Below, one piece after another: positions 4,501-33,012 of a DNA stretch of 64,000 nt. Within the stretch, counting starts at the first letter, position 1. Each line of letters begins with the position of its first letter. The stretch is from the NCBI RefSeq assembly GCF_040219335.1, contig NZ_JAVJSQ010000019.1, positions 434,001 through 498,000 of the forward strand. The letters run 5' to 3'. The stretch comes from Gimesia sp. Lineage in GTDB: Bacteria > Planctomycetota > Planctomycetia > Planctomycetales > Planctomycetaceae. The position numbers and the translations under genes were made by a program. The notes under the pieces were generated by a model. The model did not search any database. It was given only the letters and a program-made list of their open reading frames with translations, and was not told the origin of the DNA.

Positions 4501-5894
4501 GCAATTATGTGATTGCCAGTGAGAATCTGCTGACATTCCGATCTGGGGCTGCGGGGTTTTATGATCTGGCCAATCAGAGTGGGACCGGTAATTTCGGCGG
4601 GTTCAAATCGAGTTGTACTTCGAATTTGGTTGTGGCGAATGGTGTATTGAATGCCCCCGATTACACTCGCACCTGCAGTTGCTCCTATCAGAACCAGACC
4701 TCCCTGGCCTTGATCCACATGCCTGAAATCGAAATCTGGACCAACAGCCAGTTACAGGACGCTGCAGAGTCGACGGGAGTGGTGAAACAGGCGGGGATCA
4801 ATTTCGGTGCCCCCGGGGATCGCGGGGCAGACACCGGTACGCTCTGGCTGGATTATCCTAGCGTGGGTGGGGAGTCTCCTGACTTAGCAGTCACCATCTC
4901 AAACAAAAAATATCGCACCTTCCGCCACCATGCGCTTAAAATCAGCGATTCACCGTCGAAACCGGGTTTGAGCTGGGTCGCTGCCTCCGGCATTGAAGAT
5001 CCGAAGAAGATTACGATCGCCATCCGCCAGGAGGATTCAGCCAAACAAGGAGAAGGCATTCCTGTGGCCAGTGTAGATGATGACGCGGAAGAGAATCCCA
5101 AGGGGAACGTCAGCATGAACAGCAGCGATCTGGAGCTGACACTGGATGGCGGTAATCCACAGGTCGTGGCGATTCGTTTTACCGATATCCCCCTGTCACG
5201 CACCGACGAACTCGAAGCAGCCTATATTCAATTCACTGTCGATGAGACGGGCAAGGAAGAGTGCCAGCTGAAAATTCAAGGTGAGCTGACTGTCGATTCG
5301 AAACCACTGATGGAATCAAAACACAATCTCTCCGGCCGAAAACGGACGCGGGCTGTCGTCGCCTGGTCGCCTCCTGCCTGGACCAAGGTGGATGCTGCTG
5401 GTGAAGCACAACGGACGCCTGATTTAAAACCCATTCTCGATGAAATTCGCCAGCAGCCTGGTTGGAAACCGGGCAATCCGATTTCATTTATCATCACCGG
5501 TACGGGCACACGCACAGCCCGCTCTTATCGGGGACCGACTTCCGGATCGGCGCGACTGGTACTGAAAAAGAAAGAGACAGCGGCGGAGAACCGTCCTGAA
5601 GATGTTGCAGCGAAAACGAATGAAAATGCCCGACGATATTCAGTTCGCCTGACTTTCAATGAACCGAACATGAAACTCAAAATCGGGGAACGAAAGTTTG
5701 ATGTATTCCTGCAGGGAGAACGGGTGCTGCAGGACTTCGATATTCTGGCTGAGACTGGTCAGCCCATGCGAAGCCTGGTCAAGGAAATCCCCGGAGTGGT
5801 GGTGACCGATCAGCTGGAGCTGGAATTCAAGTCTGTCCGTGGCTCTCAGGCCGCTCCCCTCATCTCGGGGATCGAGTTGATCAGTGAAGACTGA
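1539..5894 (+). CDS. PQQ-like beta-propeller lipoprotein with methyltransferase-like and malectin-like domains
   Basis: This encodes 1451 residues from the ATG at 1539. An N-terminal hydrophobic stretch ends in VTAC, a plausible lipobox, so the protein is probably exported and lipid-anchored. Residues about 30-440 carry PQQ-type repeats (WPMWRYDAGHT, LVALDTRTGETLWTF, YALDAETGTVTWV). Residues about 447-600 look like a class I methyltransferase fold: a VCVGGD strand in the motif I position, LLVLEPD as the acidic strand 2, and RSVRPYGGVIWIP as strand 5. The motif I glycine pattern is degenerate, so catalysis is doubtful. A second PQQ propeller follows (about 600-1065; ARDVYTGEVLWRREFD, CLDLQTGKELW). 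Next is a beta-sandwich region (LEAAYIQFTVDE, RTPDLKPILDEI), and a malectin-like domain ends the protein (FNEPNMKLKIGERKFDVFLQG). The role is unknown; outer-surface binding of carbohydrates is an inference. It converges on recJ with 14 bp between the stops. Confidence 0.88.
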   Translation: MKIISMTRSIFYLPFLICVTACLHSVPVLEAGDWPMWRYDAGHTASSPAALPDQLTPVWTRKFSPRKQVWDDPLNNDLMTYDKVFEPVVSGQRMFVGFNDADKLVALDTRTGETLWTFFTDGPVRFSPVATEDRVYLVSDDGHLYCLNSSDGTLIWKFRGAPAAQKTLGNQRVISAWPARGGPVLYDDQIYFAASIWPFMGTFIYALDAETGTVTWVNDSTSASYIKQPHSAPSFAGVAPQGTLVATEELLLVPGGRSVPAALDRKTGELKYFHLGGKGNGGSFVISGEKEFFVHTRYRGVRAYNLETGLPNLYVHNEPVLHEEQIYSASLKNKQPVLEAFNNQHKALWSLPVDGQGDLIRAGNRLYAVGEQTLSAVELPASPDAKPQVAWQQPISGTVARLLAADNRLYAVTQEGAIMAFAAPGEQTESIITEATSETKPAVDPAAMELAARILKQTETRTGYAVCVGGDNPDLLDAFLRLSPLQLLVLEPDVQRVAALRKRYDARGEYGTRISAHQATPTRFKSPQHIARVTIVSAPQVESLTSASLQQIYRSVRPYGGVIWIPAADERLDSLKNMIRQAQLPKAEVAELADGLLIRRVGALPDSADWTHQYGDIANSVKSNDKRVKLPLGVLWFGGNSHDDVLPRHGHGPPEQVIGGRTFLEGMNSLSARDVYTGEVLWRREFDDLGTFGIYFNSTYADTPLSTQYNQKHIPGANARGTNYIATAEEVYLAIGAECHVLSAVDGQTQRIVKLPDPKKDWAFIAVDQDILLAGNGFAHYGKKVEEKAGKDGPAATDLSASRGLIAFDRRSGEKLWQVDAVHSFLHNGIVAGRNRLYCLDKLPASAEKKLSRRGMADPSQYRILCLDLQTGKELWSTKESIFGSWLGYSEKHDLLLQAGARASDRLSDEVGQGMIAYQADDGTILWQKKDQKYTGPLVLHNDLIITSANSYQVSGGAFHIRDGSPYTITNPITREKEPLKFSRTYGCNYVIASENLLTFRSGAAGFYDLANQSGTGNFGGFKSSCTSNLVVANGVLNAPDYTRTCSCSYQNQTSLALIHMPEIEIWTNSQLQDAAESTGVVKQAGINFGAPGDRGADTGTLWLDYPSVGGESPDLAVTISNKKYRTFRHHALKISDSPSKPGLSWVAASGIEDPKKITIAIRQEDSAKQGEGIPVASVDDDAEENPKGNVSMNSSDLELTLDGGNPQVVAIRFTDIPLSRTDELEAAYIQFTVDETGKEECQLKIQGELTVDSKPLMESKHNLSGRKRTRAVVAWSPPAWTKVDAAGEAQRTPDLKPILDEIRQQPGWKPGNPISFIITGTGTRTARSYRGPTSGSARLVLKKKETAAENRPEDVAAKTNENARRYSVRLTFNEPNMKLKIGERKFDVFLQGERVLQDFDILAETGQPMRSLVKEIPGVVVTDQLELEFKSVRGSQAAPLISGIELISED

Positions 5895-5908
5895 GAGCGC
5901 CTTTCGGC

Positions 5909-7672
5909 TCAGGAAGTAACGGGAGTATCAGCTGTTTCAGAAATCCAGTCCTTCAGTTGGAGCTGTACGCTTTCAAAACCACGAAAGCGGTTGATATTCG
6001 GAGCGAAGCTGATCGAAAAAGGACCGCCGGCTTCTTCCATCTGGCTGGCCCACTCCCCTTTGCCGAAAGCGATGGCACGAATGCGGGTTTTGTGCTGCTG
6101 GAAGACCAGTGAAAGGTGCCGTCCCCCTTCTCCCATCGTTTTGGGAGGCTCGGCCAGTTCGACCCGGGTGGCGACAAACTGAGGCCGTGGATTCTCCTGC
6201 CCGAAGGGGCCCAGGCAATCCAGTTCCAGAACCGCCTGTTTGGTGATCTCATTCAGACATACTTCCGCATCGATCTTCACCAGTAGATCGTCGTCTGACG
6301 GTGGTGGTGCCGTAGCCGCATAGGCGGCGAACGCCTGACGAAAGTCTTCGATTTTGTCCTCTTCGATGCGCAAGCCTGCGGCAGCCTGGTGACCGCCGAA
6401 GCGCATCAGGTGCTCAGCACAGGATGAGAAACCGGCATGCAGATCGAAGCCGGCGAAGGACCGCGCCGATCCCTGACCGGTGCGGGTCGCGGCTTCAAGG
6501 GCGATCAATACCGTTGGTTTTTCAAAATGCTCGGCGACTCGGTTTGCAACGATGCCGATCACACCGGGGTGCCAGTCCGGATGGGCGAGGACCAGGGTCT
6601 GATGCTCTTCCCACTCGGCGTTCTCTTCGACCATCTCGCGTGCCTGTTTGAGAATCCGGCGTTCGACCGTGCGACGGTTTTTATTGAGTTCATCCAGGTA
6701 GAGTGCCAGCTGCACGGCCCGTTCCCGATTACTGGTGGTGAGCAGTTCCACTGCCAGGCGGGCCTGCCCCAGTCGACCGGCGGCATTCAGTCGGGGCGCG
6801 ATGGCAAAACCGATGTCTTCGGTATCGAGTGGCTGACCGGTTTTGATCTCCGCGACTTTCATCAGTTCCTGCAGTCCCAGGGGAGCCAGTTCTGCAAGTG
6901 CCCCGAGTCCGTAGCGAACAATAATCCGATTTTCACCAACGAGGGGAACCACATCGGCAATAGTCCCAATTGCAGCCAACCCGACGGCACATTTGAGAAA
7001 CTCGCGCATCTGGGGAGAGGCTTTCTGGCCATCACCCAGTTTCTGACAAACGGCCCAGGCCAGTTTTAAAGCGACACCGGCACCACAGAGGTGAGGAAAT
7101 CCATAGTCGCCTCCGGGGAGACGAGGATGTACGAGGCAGGCCGCAGCCGGCAGCTCTTCATCCATCTGATGGTGATCGGTAATGATCAGTTCCAGGCCGA
7201 GTTCTTTTGCGAGAGCAGCCTCTGTGACACTGGTGATCCCACAGTCGACGGTAATCAACAGCCGCTCGGGATCTTCTTCGTGTAATTCGCGAATGGCATC
7301 GCAGTTCAGGCCGTAGCCATCATCCAGGCGGTTGGGGATGAAATAGTCACATTGTCCGTTGGCCAGGGTGATGCACTGCAGCAGAATACTGGTGGCGGTC
7401 ATGCCGTCGACGTCGTAGTCGCCGTAGATAGTAATCCGACGTTTAGAGTTCAGGGCAGCGATCACACGGTCGGTAGCTTCTTCGATGCCGGGCATACTGC
7501 AGGGATCGAGCAGCTCATTCATGCGAGCGTTGATAAAACTGCGGGCAGTGCCCACATCCTGGAGCCCGCGGGCGATCAAAACCTGGGCCAGGAGGGGAGA
7601 AATCCGCATTTCAGAACTGAGGCGGCGTACCTGAGATTCATCGTGGGGGGCAAATCGCCAGTTTTGAGTCAT
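5909..7672 (-). CDS. recJ: Single-stranded-DNA-specific exonuclease RecJ
   Basis: RecJ degrades single-stranded DNA 5' to 3' in recombination and mismatch repair, in the cytoplasm. The 587-residue product has the DHH phosphoesterase motifs: DYDVDGM (85-91), VDCG near 142 and TDHH (165-168). The DHHA1 part follows, with HPDWHPGVIGIVANR and the GGHQAAAG glycine motif. The length matches bacterial RecJ. The ATG start at 7672 follows a leaderless cytoplasmic-type N terminus. The gene is divergent from ilvN across a 340-bp gap and convergent with the PQQ-propeller gene. All catalytic Asp and His motifs expected of the family are visible. Confidence 0.97.
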   Translation of the reverse strand: MTQNWRFAPHDESQVRRLSSEMRISPLLAQVLIARGLQDVGTARSFINARMNELLDPCSMPGIEEATDRVIAALNSKRRITIYGDYDVDGMTATSILLQCITLANGQCDYFIPNRLDDGYGLNCDAIRELHEEDPERLLITVDCGITSVTEAALAKELGLELIITDHHQMDEELPAAACLVHPRLPGGDYGFPHLCGAGVALKLAWAVCQKLGDGQKASPQMREFLKCAVGLAAIGTIADVVPLVGENRIIVRYGLGALAELAPLGLQELMKVAEIKTGQPLDTEDIGFAIAPRLNAAGRLGQARLAVELLTTSNRERAVQLALYLDELNKNRRTVERRILKQAREMVEENAEWEEHQTLVLAHPDWHPGVIGIVANRVAEHFEKPTVLIALEAATRTGQGSARSFAGFDLHAGFSSCAEHLMRFGGHQAAAGLRIEEDKIEDFRQAFAAYAATAPPPSDDDLLVKIDAEVCLNEITKQAVLELDCLGPFGQENPRPQFVATRVELAEPPKTMGEGGRHLSLVFQQHKTRIRAIAFGKGEWASQMEEAGGPFSISFAPNINRFRGFESVQLQLKDWISETADTPVTS

Positions 7673-8012
7673 CCTTGCTCTCGCTCTTCTTCGTCAGAGG
7701 GCCAAATTCCGCTTGTATCGGGTATTTATTAAAACAGAGTCCAGGCTGGCTGTCAAAACCCCCGCTCCGGGAACTGGCGAAAATGCCCGAGTCGTGGGGT
7801 TTTCTACGCAAATGAACCCAATCGGAGGTAAACCTGTCTGTTCCGGAAGTAAGGTAGAGGCATAACCGGTCTAATCGTCCTGATCATAAGCCGAGTCTGA
7901 GAGTTATCGACTGCGGGACTTGCCGCGACTCACTGCCGCGACTAGACTGTATGCTTCAATCACTTGTCACGTATTTTTGAGTTTCTGATTGTACACGGAT
8001 TAAGGTTTTGGG
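7673..8012. promoter_or_regulatory. Divergent recJ / ilvN intergenic region with direct repeat
   Basis: This 340-bp region lies between two divergent genes and must hold both promoters. I could not assign a convincing -35/-10 pair. The sequence TGCCGCGACT occurs twice in direct orientation, at 7921-7930 and 7934-7943, with a related CGACTGCGGGACT just before it. The 13-bp spacing is close to one helical turn, so the pair could be a regulator site for ilvN, though chance cannot be excluded. Confidence 0.35.
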
Positions 8013-24567: not shown

Positions 24568-25998
24568 TCACGGCAGATCAAAGATGAACGAGGTCTGCAG
24601 GCGGTGTGCATCGCCTGTCCCGCCGCCGACGTCTTCCTTGGTTCCGTACAGATACTCAACACCGATCTTAACGTTCTCGATCGGATTCCAGATCAGGTTT
24701 GCCGCCAGGTAAGTGGTCTGTTTGACATCTGTGGCCGTTTGAAAGGTTGAGGTATCAAGGGTATTTTCGGCATAGGTGAAGTTGGAGCTGAGTTCGTCAT
24801 TCCAGTCATGGGTCAGACCGACCATCCAGCCGAACATGGGTAACAGATCACCCTTGTTGGCGGCTGTCGGCGCGGCATCAGGCAAAGCCCGGTAACTGCC
24901 GATCCCCTCACCGAATACGATCTGTGAATAGACCTTTGTGCGTTCAGTAATCAGCCGCACCCCAGTGAAGTTGAATCCATAGGCGAAGCTGGTAACAACA
25001 TCCTGCCCTGTCGGCTGGAAGCCGACGACACGATACAGGCCCGCGACCTGGTATTGACCACAGTCATTCTCATAACGCAGTCGGGTGACAAAATCAGGGG
25101 AGGGACTGCGAGGTTCCCCTGTGATTCCCTGAGGAGGTTCGATAATAAAATTTGAATCTTCTACCGAGACCGCGAACGTTGTATTATCATTGAAGACTTT
25201 CTCTGTCCAGCGAACCTGCGCCTGTCTGCGGTTCACGGCTGAAACGGAGCCTTCAAAGTCGAGTGTCGCAGGAGCTGCTGCCACGTCGGTGAATGTCGTC
25301 CAGGTCTGTCCTACCAGCAGTGAACCAGACTGACCGAAAGCATGCCTTAACCGAAAACGGTCTCCGTCACTGAAGAAGTCACCTTCCACGTAGACGCGAA
25401 CCAGGCGGCCATTTGTCAGCCAGCGGGTATCAAAACTCAAGCGGGACTGTCGCGCATGAAACCGGGCATTCGTCCGATGCGGGGCACCGATGGGAATGTC
25501 AGTCGTCACAAACGAGTCTGTCGAATCGATAGGATCGAAATCGTAGATGAAATCAGCTTTGACAAAGCCACCGATTTTCATCGCGGCTTCTTTTCCAAAG
25601 ATAATTAATCCGTCGGAGAACGAGGGAGCCGCGTAGAGATCCAAACCGACGTTAAACTGGCGGGCATCTGTGATATAGGGATCCGAGAGGAGCTCCGGGT
25701 TGACTTCGCCACTCCCGACGCCCATGGTCAGCGGAGGCACAATCGCCTGACTGGACTCGGGCTCATCCGGAAGCGGACTGTTGTCTAAATTGTTCGCCTC
25801 ATCCAGCGAGATATTCACCCGGCCGGGCTCATCCGTCATTACTCCCGGTGCAAAGGGCTGATCAACAGACAGAAACGGATCGTAAGCGGATCGCGCAGCA
25901 GGCTCCGGTGGCAAAGACCGACTTTGTGCCCCGACTGTGGCGGGAACAACGGTCAGTGCCAGCAGCAACGTACAGGCAAGCTTCGTATTCCAGTGCAT
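24568..25998 (-). CDS. DcaP-like outer-membrane porin
   Basis: The 476-residue product has a signal peptide (LACTLLLALTVVPATVGAQS), a Pro-rich spacer to about residue 105, and then a beta-barrel pattern. Key stretches are MKIGGFVKADFIYDFDP, HARQSRLSFDTRW, VYVEGDFF and LLVGQTWTTFTD, which match DcaP-type trimeric porins. It ends in alternating hydrophobic strands and a terminal aromatic-Asp-Leu-Pro. The role is passive uptake of small, probably anionic, molecules across the outer membrane; the substrate cannot be told. The N-terminal spacer before the barrel is longer than usual for porins. Confidence 0.85.
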   Translation of the reverse strand: MHWNTKLACTLLLALTVVPATVGAQSRSLPPEPAARSAYDPFLSVDQPFAPGVMTDEPGRVNISLDEANNLDNSPLPDEPESSQAIVPPLTMGVGSGEVNPELLSDPYITDARQFNVGLDLYAAPSFSDGLIIFGKEAAMKIGGFVKADFIYDFDPIDSTDSFVTTDIPIGAPHRTNARFHARQSRLSFDTRWLTNGRLVRVYVEGDFFSDGDRFRLRHAFGQSGSLLVGQTWTTFTDVAAAPATLDFEGSVSAVNRRQAQVRWTEKVFNDNTTFAVSVEDSNFIIEPPQGITGEPRSPSPDFVTRLRYENDCGQYQVAGLYRVVGFQPTGQDVVTSFAYGFNFTGVRLITERTKVYSQIVFGEGIGSYRALPDAAPTAANKGDLLPMFGWMVGLTHDWNDELSSNFTYAENTLDTSTFQTATDVKQTTYLAANLIWNPIENVKIGVEYLYGTKEDVGGGTGDAHRLQTSFIFDLP

Positions 25999-26254: not shown

Positions 26255-26947
26255 ATGCTGAAACTGATCTACCTGCTGTTGCTGGCAACTCTCCTGCTTT
26301 GTAATGAAACCTGTTCTGCTGCAGAGGTCATCAATGCGGGCGTCGGCGGTAATCGCAGTTCACAGCTGCTGAAGCGACTGGAGCGGGATGTAATCTCGAA
26401 GCAGCCGACCGTGGTCGTGCTGATGGTGGGCACGAATGACCGGCTTAACTCGGGAGGCTTTATTGACATCAAGGCGTACCGCAAGAATGTGGTATCGCTG
26501 GTCGATCAGATTCACGCAGGTGGTGCGAAGGTTGTCCTGATGACGCCCCCCACCTGTATTCCGGAGCTTTTGTTTACCCGTCATGACCCCACAAAGTACG
26601 CCGACCAGGCGCCGCAAGCACGCATGCAGGAAGTACGAACGGTCCTGCTGGATCTTTCGCGTCAAAAGCAGATTCCGGTAATCGACTTTCATGACTATCT
26701 GATCGACCACAAAATCGCGGACGCTTCTAAAACCAGCGTCATCCGTAATCCAGCGAACAGCGGCGTCAAAGATGGCGTGCATCTGACACCAGCCGGTTAT
26801 CAGCTGCTGGCCAGACTCGTCGCTGAGAAACTGAATGCAGAGCAGTTGGATGTCACAAAAGTGATCTGTTTCGGTGACAGCCTGACGAAGGGATCCAAAC
26901 AGGCGAACTACCCGGCTTATCTACAGCAACTCCTTTCAGACAAGTAA
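26255..26947 (+). CDS. SGNH/GDSL-type hydrolase with circularly permuted motif order
   Basis: The 230-residue protein has a signal peptide (LIYLLLLATLLLCNETCSA) and looks like an exported SGNH esterase. The SGNH blocks are in an unusual order. Block II comes first (NAGVGGN, 27-33), then block III (VGTND, 58-62), then block V (DGVHLTPAGY, 173-182), and last block I with the nucleophile (CFGDSLTKG, 205-213; Ser209), followed by YPAYLQQLL. In normal SGNH enzymes the GDS block is at the N terminus. Here the chain seems cut just before the second strand and rejoined at the end. The catalytic Ser, Gly, Asn, Asp and His are all present, so activity is plausible. Substrate is unknown. Confidence 0.9.
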   Translation: MLKLIYLLLLATLLLCNETCSAAEVINAGVGGNRSSQLLKRLERDVISKQPTVVVLMVGTNDRLNSGGFIDIKAYRKNVVSLVDQIHAGGAKVVLMTPPTCIPELLFTRHDPTKYADQAPQARMQEVRTVLLDLSRQKQIPVIDFHDYLIDHKIADASKTSVIRNPANSGVKDGVHLTPAGYQLLARLVAEKLNAEQLDVTKVICFGDSLTKGSKQANYPAYLQQLLSDK

Positions 26948-30189: not shown

Positions 30190-33012
30190 TCAAGGCCAGT
30201 CGGTCACATGACTGTCATTGATCAGCAGCAGATATTTGAGTGTTTCAGGCTTGAGTGTATCCGGGAGATAACGGGCTGCACCGTCACACAGGCCGACACA
30301 GAATCCTCCGGGATAAAAACCACCAAGCTCGGGAACGGTTTTCCCGTCAAAGGAAATGTCCTCTGGCTTGGTCCAGGGAATCTCACGCCTGGCTTCAACA
30401 ATCGCGATTGTGTTGGACGTTCCGTCGGTGATCTCACGCATGCGGACCCCGGCTACCGGTTCTGCCTTTGATTCGACACCACCGCCTCCTGCCAGTCCGC
30501 CAGTGGCAAACGGCTCTGTGCTCATCTCTATCCCTGCCCCACCAGCGGGGCGCGTTGATTTGCCAAACACGGTATTGGGACCTGCCACAGCCAGATAGGA
30601 AGTCAGATGGCCGGGACGATTATCGCCGGGATTTTTAAAGACCGCAGGCATTTTTGCCAGGACTTGTTTGTTATGCTCGCTGTCCCAGGGTTCGTTCAGG
30701 CGATATTCCTTGTAGAGTTTTTCCTGATCCAGGAAGGGCAACAGTGCGACTCGCCAGCTGTGAGGCGTTTTCCCATCTGGCCCGATCACAACCGCGGGAG
30801 GAAAATGCTTGTGTTTGCCATGAAAGAGATGCATGGCCAGCACCAGGCGTCTGAGATTGCTAAAAGATTCCATCCGCAGGGCCGCTTTACGTGCTTCAAT
30901 CATCGCGGGAACGAAAGATGATAGCGTATTGTTGAGAACAGTCATGTCGGTCATTGAAGTTGTCAAACTGACATTTTCCCCGGCTTGATCAAAGTGGAGT
31001 GATTTGACGAGATCCAGAGATGACTCCACAAGCGGCACCATTGCCAGCTGTTCCCGGTTTTGACCTTGAACTATCTGTTGCAGATGCTGTTGCAGGAGAT
31101 TGGTCCCGAGCACCTGTGCCGCCTCCAGGGTCTTACGGATCTCCCCACCGTTCTGCTGTTGATAGAGCGTAGACTGCAACGAGAACTTGTGTTCCAGATT
31201 CACTCCCAGGGATATCAGATCCGTGTGTTCCCAGACCGGTGCCAGGGATCCTTTCCAGACCGAGTCGTTTAATTCCAGTTTCCACTGATTCTTCCAGACC
31301 AGTTCGCGAAACTGACGCAGGTTGAACAGTGCGGCGATGGAATCTTGTGACACAGGTTTCCAGGGCTCTATCCAGCGGCTCGACTGTCGGTTACTGCGGG
31401 CTGTAATAACCTGTTCCAGACCTTTTGTCGTTTTCGAGACGATCAATTCATGGTCGTTGACGATCGACAGGCAATATCCAGGGTAAGTCTCTGACTGCAG
31501 GTAGTGAACTCTCCCATCAGTCACGCCGCTGAATATTTTGCCTTCACCACCAAATGATTTGGTGACTTGCTTCAAATCGAGAGTCGTCTGAATGACGGCC
31601 ACATGATTCAGTGGCTGGCTTTGGGGCTGACCTGGTTCGGGCGCTAACAGAATCAGGGTAACCGACTGGATTTCTGAAAACGGTATATCCAGTGGATACA
31701 ATCGAGAGTTCTCTCTTGCCGCTTTCAACAACTGCAGCCGGGCCATCAGCAGTGCCTGCTGCGCGAGCAACTCGGCTGGTCGCAGGGCTACAACCCCCAG
31801 GGCATTATTGGGAACCATGTCGATCTCAAATGGAACCTGCTTTCCCCGTACTATTTTATCGCGATCAACCGCACCTGCTGCGGATAGTGGGTCGCTTTCT
31901 GCCGAAGGTTGTTGGGCCAGGCTGATCTGATTGCTCCGGAAACCTGACGCGCAAAGGCCGATTACCAGCATCACACCGAACACCAATATTCGCTGGGTAC
32001 GCGAGACGATATTTCCTGGAGTACGCCTCTGTTTCAACATCTCAATCCTCCTTAAAAAAGTGGAATGTGTGGGGAGAAAGGCCCGGGCCGGCCCCGTAAG
32101 TCGATGACTTGTCTGCGAAACAGCCATTTCTGCCAGGACAACCAGATAAGGAGCGGTACCGCCACTGATCGTCGCCGCGGTGGCATCTGCCGACAACTCC
32201 TGTTCCAGGCGCAATCGTGCGACAAGCCAGTGAATCAGCGGGTGATAAAAATAGAGGGAGCGGCTGAGTTCAGCCCCCAGAATCGCCAGGTAATCGCGAT
32301 GCCTGATATGAGCCAGTTCATGGGCGAGTACAGCCCGTAGTTGTTCGGAATTCCATTCGCGCCAGGCAGTCGGCAGGAGGATCACTGGTCGCCACCACCC
32401 AATCACTGCCGCTGTTGTGAGTGAAGCATGCTCGCTGATTTTCAACGGGCAGGAAATCTGTTGTTGAGCTACCAGGATATCCAGCGTCTGCTCTGCAACT
32501 GATCCGCTAAGCGAAGTTGCCTGACGCAGTAATCGATTGAGTGAATAGAATGCGAACACCAGTCGGATTGCCGCCAGCAGGAAGCCCACCACGAACATCC
32601 AACCAACGATCCCTGCCGGTGTGGAAATACTGGCGGACTGATTGGCTACCGGTTTCTGTTGCAAGCCTTTTAGAAAACCTTCCCAGACGGTTGACCATTC
32701 CGTTTCCTGCGGGGATTGCTTCAAAATCGGCGTCTGTAATTCATTCTCGGGAGCTTCAGTTACGGTTGTATTCTGGATGTCTGAAGCGTCATTGATAGCG
32801 GGAGTTGTTTGCTTCCCGGTTGTCTGCCAGCGGGGCCAGGGGCTGAGGGCGAACATTGCCAGCAGCAAAGTCATTCCGATCGAACAGGAGAGGAGAAACG
32901 AGCGTGTACGGGGACCAAGTCGTTTCGTCGTACTGTAAATGAGTAATCCAGCGGCGGAGACCAGCGTTACCTGCAGTCCCAGCCAGAACAGGCTGATTCC
33001 AAGTTGATGCAT
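30190..33012 (-). CDS. BlaR1-type M56 peptidase fused to DUF1559 domain
   Basis: The 940-residue membrane protein has BlaR1/MecR1 architecture at the N terminus: hydrophobic helices at about 5-25, 38-56 and 135-158, and a zinc peptidase motif HELAH (231-235) followed by EQELSADATAA. A further helix near residue 340 (ILVFGVMLVIGLCASGF) ends the membrane part. BlaR1 has a penicillin-binding sensor after this point. Here the extracellular part instead holds about 350 residues of unknown type and a C-terminal DUF1559 region (NLRRLVLAMHLFHGKHKHFP, WRVALLPFLDQEKLY, MREITDGTSNTIAIVEA, GLCDGAARYLPDTL). The likely role is to sense an external signal and cleave the BlaI repressor encoded just upstream; the signal is unknown. 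The start overlaps the blaI stop by one base (TGATG). Confidence 0.88.
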   Translation of the reverse strand: MHQLGISLFWLGLQVTLVSAAGLLIYSTTKRLGPRTRSFLLSCSIGMTLLLAMFALSPWPRWQTTGKQTTPAINDASDIQNTTVTEAPENELQTPILKQSPQETEWSTVWEGFLKGLQQKPVANQSASISTPAGIVGWMFVVGFLLAAIRLVFAFYSLNRLLRQATSLSGSVAEQTLDILVAQQQISCPLKISEHASLTTAAVIGWWRPVILLPTAWREWNSEQLRAVLAHELAHIRHRDYLAILGAELSRSLYFYHPLIHWLVARLRLEQELSADATAATISGGTAPYLVVLAEMAVSQTSHRLTGPARAFLPTHSTFLRRIEMLKQRRTPGNIVSRTQRILVFGVMLVIGLCASGFRSNQISLAQQPSAESDPLSAAGAVDRDKIVRGKQVPFEIDMVPNNALGVVALRPAELLAQQALLMARLQLLKAARENSRLYPLDIPFSEIQSVTLILLAPEPGQPQSQPLNHVAVIQTTLDLKQVTKSFGGEGKIFSGVTDGRVHYLQSETYPGYCLSIVNDHELIVSKTTKGLEQVITARSNRQSSRWIEPWKPVSQDSIAALFNLRQFRELVWKNQWKLELNDSVWKGSLAPVWEHTDLISLGVNLEHKFSLQSTLYQQQNGGEIRKTLEAAQVLGTNLLQQHLQQIVQGQNREQLAMVPLVESSLDLVKSLHFDQAGENVSLTTSMTDMTVLNNTLSSFVPAMIEARKAALRMESFSNLRRLVLAMHLFHGKHKHFPPAVVIGPDGKTPHSWRVALLPFLDQEKLYKEYRLNEPWDSEHNKQVLAKMPAVFKNPGDNRPGHLTSYLAVAGPNTVFGKSTRPAGGAGIEMSTEPFATGGLAGGGGVESKAEPVAGVRMREITDGTSNTIAIVEARREIPWTKPEDISFDGKTVPELGGFYPGGFCVGLCDGAARYLPDTLKPETLKYLLLINDSHVTDWP

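Follow-up and report, generated by a model that had tools for sequence, protein, structure and literature searches.

What kind of protein is encoded by an open reading frame that carries the conserved blocks of an SGNH/GDSL hydrolase in the wrong order? Within the 64,000 nt stretch of Gimesia sp. DNA analysed here (the window), one frame encodes blocks II, III and V first and the nucleophile-bearing block I last, and the original prediction read this as a natural circular permutation. Its coordinates, strand, frame and the numbering of Asn61, Asp173, His176 and Ser209 were found correct on re-reading, and the claimed order of II, III and V ahead of a C-terminal block I is indeed present. The relevant features are:

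24,568 to 25,998, minus strand: gene for a DcaP-like outer membrane porin, oriented divergently to the esterase gene
26,255 to 26,947, plus strand: circularly permuted SGNH hydrolase, 230 aa, block order II-III-V-I (G-N-H-S)
26,255 to 26,320, plus strand: likely signal peptide, residues 1-22 (hydrophobic N terminus, from reading of the sequence)
26,333 to 26,353, plus strand: block II NAGVGGN, residues 27-33, with Gly32 taken as the oxyanion Gly
26,426 to 26,440, plus strand: block III VGTND, residues 58-62, with Asn61 (from the sequence)
26,771 to 26,800, plus strand: block V DGVHLTPAGY, residues 173-182, with Asp173 and His176 (from the sequence)
26,840 to 26,857, plus strand: new linker, residues 196-201, from the old C-terminal helix to the block I strand (from model secondary structure and Asp-Ser spacing)
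26,867 to 26,893, plus strand: block I CFGDSLTKG, residues 205-213, C-terminal, with nucleophile Ser209 (from the sequence)
26,909 to 26,938, plus strand: helix after block I, residues 219-228, counterpart of helix 1 in canonical SGNH domains (from models)

The protein matches Pfam PF13472 (Lipase_GDSL_2) with an E-value of 9.6e-26, the best stretch covering residues 23-184 and profile positions 33-178, with a second stretch counted by Pfam. It shares with this family blocks I, II, III and V with their Ser, Gly, Asn and Asp-x-x-His, as well as a modelled SGNH fold, and differs in having block I after block V, with the best profile stretch starting only at position 33. In an alignment of the window protein with 70 permuted relatives, the nucleophile Ser209 (in CFGDSLT), Asn61 of block III, and Asp173 and His176 of the block V DxxH are identical in 71/71 rows, and Gly32, which we take to be the oxyanion Gly of block II from knowledge of the family, is present in 70/71, so the claim that all catalytic residues are kept holds throughout the family; Arg109 (68/71) and His110 (64/71) are also common. 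The order of these residues is G-N-H-S and not the S-G-N-H given by an N-terminal block I, and we therefore file the protein as a permuted variant and not as a standard SGNH member. Block I is directly followed by YPAYLQQLL and the stop codon, while at the other end residues 1-22 are likely to be a signal peptide, in which case the mature protein would start nearly at the block II strand. The genome contains 23 places matching PF13472 at E ≤ 1e-3, and the window locus is the only one matched at E ≤ 1e-22 by a profile built from the orthologues of the genus.

The simplest way to obtain such an order would be an assembly or sequencing error joining two genes, and the genomes of the same genus bear directly on this. 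An orthologue is present in 15/17 of them (the window's genome included; 67-100% identity), several of which are single-contig assemblies, and the two genomes without it are 76% (G006) and 74% (G015) complete. All 15 orthologues were read; 14 are intact and CFGDSLT is identical in all 15. The remaining one (L023, in G002) is interrupted by an in-frame TAA codon immediately behind GDSLT. What is left of the conserved tail can still be read downstream, and the product would keep the catalytic Ser and lose the last helix. For the three closest pairs within the genus, for which dS is unsaturated, the tail has a dN of 0.015-0.030 versus a dS of 0.35-0.53, and judged by these substitution rates the C-terminal block is constrained and the tail under purifying selection. 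Because the same block order recurs in 15/17 genomes of the genus and in at least 70 other named records, a few of which overlap with the other genomes sampled, an error fusing two genes is rejected as the source of the arrangement, its probability being negligible.

The permuted order extends far beyond the genus. With the genus-orthologue profile, 21/170 genomes of the order gave a match at E ≤ 1e-22 (15 from the window's genus, five from genus g47 and one from g45), and in every one of these 21 frames block I comes last. A draw of 397 genomes from the class (E ≤ 1e-21) gave matches reaching the C-terminal block only in the genus, in g47 and in G099, the last of which reaches profile position 216 and is canonical on reading; the other canonical-looking matches of this draw were read in part. 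A draw of 392 genomes from the phylum added permuted copies in G562 (two), G703 and G629, and a match in G696 which ends at the contig end ahead of block V. In block I of one of the G562 copies (L104), GDS is replaced by GAS, with the Ser retained.

A scan of the genome_contigs collection with the single window protein as query confirmed no relative, and a scan with a mixed alignment gave at least 79 loci, a few of them from genomes also included in the taxon draws. By motif positions 70 of these are permuted and eight canonical (L177, L178, L180, L181 and L183-L186), and one (L156) was dropped as its frame is unclear. Among the matches listed, the 70 permuted loci are distributed over Bacteroidota (44), Lentisphaerota (11), Planctomycetota (8), Verrucomicrobiota (5), Kiritimatiellota (1) and Fibrobacterota (1), so that the search for homologues proposed with the original prediction finds the motif order conserved in planctomycetes and well beyond, in six phyla. 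The spacing between the block V Asp and the block I Ser is 34-39 residues in all 70, and 62/70 end within 35 residues of that Ser.

Whether the C-terminal tail corresponds to a canonical block I was assessed with a profile built from 37 canonical SGNH domains of the collected loci. In its native order the window protein aligns to this profile in two pieces of 125.3 and 15.1 bits (142.0 for the whole sequence), and when residues 199-230 are moved to the front it aligns in one piece of 154.5 bits (154.7 for the whole sequence). The whole-sequence gain is thus 12.7 bits, which is smaller than the gain of the best piece. None of 500 shuffled tails reached 154.5 bits (mean 128.3, maximum 135.5). 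Measured by best piece, 61/70 relatives gain on rotation, with a median of 24 bits, and 9/70 do not, the lowest value being -1.2 bits (L161). A PDB search with the family profile points the same way: columns 3-181 align with residues 39-193 of 1yzf, and the block I columns 182-195 with its residues 2-15, although at 9.4 bits the latter match is weak when taken alone. No PDB chain with the permuted order was seen among the best stretches listed and the two alignments shown, and a solved permuted structure may well exist beyond these.

The original prediction had also called for a predicted structure to be superposed on a standard SGNH hydrolase. The AlphaFold model made from the 71-row alignment is confident (mean pLDDT 95.6, pTM 0.90), including the block I region (mean pLDDT 98, 96 and 94 for residues 201-210, 211-220 and 221-230), with lower values (81, 72) in the signal peptide region, where residues 2-14 form a helix. 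A control model of the canonical sister L186, made from eight rows, has a pLDDT of 89.8 and a pTM of 0.88. By type and first residue, the elements of the permuted model are E24, H35, E53, H60, H72, E92, H103, H112, H120, H145, H166, H179, E202, H209 and H219, and those of the control E7, H20, E31, H43, E60, H67, H80, E100, H111, H120, H129, H154 and H174. Placing the last strand (E202-207) and the last helix (H219-228) of the permuted list first gives the element order of the control, apart from two short helices (166-169 and 209-212) which the control list lacks; the permuted model thus has the strands and main helices of its canonical sister in rotated order. Residues 18-197 align with 1yzf 35-190 (Z 18.2, rmsd 2.6, 156 aligned), and with the same aligner residues 5-198 of the control align with 1yzf 1-195 (Z 22.2, rmsd 3.1, 176 aligned). 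The best match is an Enterococcus lipase/acylhydrolase, and acetylxylan esterases and sialate O-acetylesterases are also among the close solved structures. AlgX-type structures are absent from the best 50 VIA-align matches, which in itself excludes nothing.

In the model, only about six residues link the former C-terminal helix with the strand of block I, and packing in cis or in trans looks the same at the level of sequence. Both points would fit a domain swap, in which the C-terminal strand and helix carrying Ser209 complete a neighbouring subunit, so that the enzyme would exist only as a swapped dimer or chain. We consider this improbable, as the monomer model has high confidence along its whole length, including block I, and since the N and C termini of canonical SGNH folds lie close together, a short linker is enough for packing in cis. 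A permuted chain folding into an active enzyme is very probable.

The origin of this chain can be approached through its canonical relatives. The nearest canonical sequences in the tree are SGNH domains of Rhodopirellula, Aporhodopirellula, Planctomycetes K23_9, Verrucomicrobiales and Opitutae (L178, L180, L181, L183 and L184, together with L186, which is not a row of the tree). They share with the permuted proteins a CFGDSIT-like block I and the RH pair, found in 7/8 rows of alignment A6 and common in permuted rows too, and two of them (L183, L186) have a PF12831 domain within the same protein; they differ in having an N-terminal block I, with its Ser located 20 residues ahead of the block II Asn. 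Across the canonical relatives this distance is 20-21 residues in 7/8 (29 in L185), from which it follows that the cut lies in a very short loop.

Trees were built on the shared part from block II to block V. A first tree of 113 rows, including four long rows, required three changes of label and not one. In a quick tree without these four rows, 74 permuted and 35 canonical rows are separated by a branch with an SH-aLRT of 97, and the AU test does not reject a constraint which groups the permuted rows with L178, L180, L181, L183 and L184 (p 0.815). The trees are thus compatible with a single origin of the permutation, which is favoured and not proven, since most of the canonical rows sampled come from planctomycetes.

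Circular permutations usually arise by duplication and subsequent trimming. Three loci of the same family (L025, L036, L038) each encode a tandem pair of canonical SGNH domains within one frame, an arrangement which could serve as the substrate for such a route. The same two considerations would also accommodate a less productive outcome, in which a stop codon truncated a second SGNH domain, leaving its start as the tail, while the first domain lost its own block I and is dead. We rejected a remnant of this kind as highly improbable in view of the narrow range of Asp-Ser spacing and the mostly short tails of the at least 70 relatives in six phyla, the purifying selection on the tail and the invariant catalytic residues. 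When the collected loci were searched with one pattern requiring block I on each side, the only frame recovered was L025, which consists of two whole canonical domains, and hence no intermediate of a tandem duplication was seen; this pattern is not exhaustive, as it missed the tandem domains of L036 and L038. The preferred reading, in which the tail is the block I of the same domain, is that of what looks like an old and working circular permutation, given that the rearranged order recurs, the catalytic residues are kept and the relatives are found in several phyla.

Permuted SGNH proteins as such are already known. AlgX, AlgJ, PatB1 (DHHW family) and WssI are described as permuted SGNH-like O-acetyltransferases (PMC9487903, PMC4148444, PMC10302187), with which the window family shares a permuted SGNH core with block V ahead of block I. 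Their order as described there is H-S-G-N (H-S-G-Y in AlgJ/AlgX, H-S-G-D in WssI), with the cut between blocks III and V, whereas the order in the window family is G-N-H-S, with the cut between blocks I and II. The blocks are also altered in AlgJ and PatB1 (GTSYS or KDS; DxH or TDHHW) and canonical in the window family, which has DxxH and Asn where AlgJ and AlgX have DxH and a Tyr in place of the block III Asn. Membership of the AlgX/PatB1 type was therefore rejected, as both block order and blocks differ. Another likeness is to CE25 (BcCE25, PMC13276840), an SGNH-type carbohydrate esterase of Bacteroides acting as a mannan deacetylase, which has the canonical order Ser37, Asn134, Asp238, His241. 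Literature searches of open-licence papers found no description of the G-N-H-S order with canonical blocks.

The activity reported for AlgJ, AlgX, PatB1 and WssI does raise the alternative that the window protein is an O-acyltransferase and not a hydrolase, since these permuted SGNH proteins are described as O-acetyltransferases. Against this stand the canonical hydrolase blocks, with the invariant Asn61 and DxxH at which AlgJ and AlgX differ, and the absence of MBOAT from the 25 listed of the 58 Pfam families found when 91 of 179 listed neighbour proteins were run against Pfam; we consider a transferase unlikely. The reading as a hydrolase is retained below; to our knowledge, no activity is known for any permuted member found in this analysis.

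The surroundings of the permuted genes give some indication of what is hydrolysed. Of the same 91 neighbour proteins, 19 match PF12831 (FAD_oxidored) and 12 match SusD, and by tblastn PF12831-like genes are present in 30/44 and SusD-like genes in 24/44 Bacteroidota loci. The PF12831-like matches in Bacteroidota are on the same strand as the permuted gene, and 22/30 lie within 200 bases of its open frame (the one of L138 was unplaced). Elsewhere such a match was found in 1/1 Fibrobacterota, 1/11 Lentisphaerota and 0/14 loci of the remaining three phyla. As background, about 53.6 Mb from eight of these genomes contain 42 PF12831 places, or about 0.01 per 12.6 kb, a rate which is if anything high, because the eight genomes were picked among loci with a match. 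The canonical sisters L183 and L186, and likewise the canonical relative L177, combine SGNH and PF12831 in one protein.

Fusions offer further context. The permuted domain is fused to a right-handed beta-helix in L126 (above the Pfam cut-off) and L123 (below it), while the fused beta-helix regions of L125 and L134 had no Pfam match at the limits used, and in L149, L161 and L173 it forms the N-terminal part of proteins of about 1150 residues with DUF6259. In L055, L058 and L059 (genus g47), L111 and L112 it follows a segment of some 300 residues which contains a GFSRG motif and looks like a serine esterase; this partner had no Pfam match in L055, L111 and L112 (E ≤ 1e-3 in L055 and L111). A planctomycete protein encoded by L180 (ORF 4969-7866) fuses a SASA esterase, a canonical SGNH domain and a sulfatase.

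The window gene itself lies beside the DcaP porin gene and an MFS transporter gene, which within 1.5 kb flanks recur in 4/14 and 3/14 loci of the genus, respectively, and conservation of the neighbourhood in the genus is a weak guide to function. The window also contains, at 30,190-33,012 on the minus strand, a BlaR1-like M56 peptidase fused to a PF07596 (DUF1559) domain. As 0/8 Planctomycetota loci have an FAD oxidoreductase or SusD match, any glycan role of the window protein is derived from its relatives.

Taken together, the recurrence of the order in at least 70 relatives, the invariant residues, the rotation test, the AlphaFold model and the PDB profile support the natural circular permutation first proposed, and we favour, with a probability of about 0.8, a secreted serine esterase with an SGNH/GDSL fold and a chain which has been circularly permuted, most likely once. 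The cut would have fallen in the short loop between the first helix, which follows block I, and the block II strand, with the old C-terminal helix joined via about six residues to the strand carrying the GDS motif. Ser209 would attack an acyl ester, with His176 and Asp173 presumably forming the relay and Gly32, Asn61 and the Ser209 backbone the oxyanion hole. The substrate may, with less certainty, be a glycan located outside the inner membrane and carrying O-acyl groups, most likely O-acetyl. Many relatives occur in loci with SusD, beside the gene of an FAD-dependent oxidoreductase; in some the domain is joined to a beta-helix or DUF6259 module; and esterases acting on acetylxylan and on O-acetylated sialic acids are among the close structural matches. 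On these grounds a role as glycan deacylase seems slightly better than an even bet. More tentatively, and at somewhat less than even odds, the G-N-H-S proteins may form a multi-phylum branch of single origin which works with the PF12831 FAD-dependent oxidoreductase in oxidative glycan processing, a partnership which would predate the permutation, since canonical sisters are fused to PF12831 and permuted members are encoded beside it.

These proteins allow a circular permutation that arose naturally in a large enzyme family to be read as a historical event, as the canonical sister group, at least 70 permuted members in six phyla and a likely partner on both sides of the event are all present. 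It also means that annotation built around an N-terminal block I could mistake such proteins for truncated or inactive ones, while the neighbouring FAD oxidoreductase and SusD genes point to an uncharacterised glycan pathway which is directly testable.
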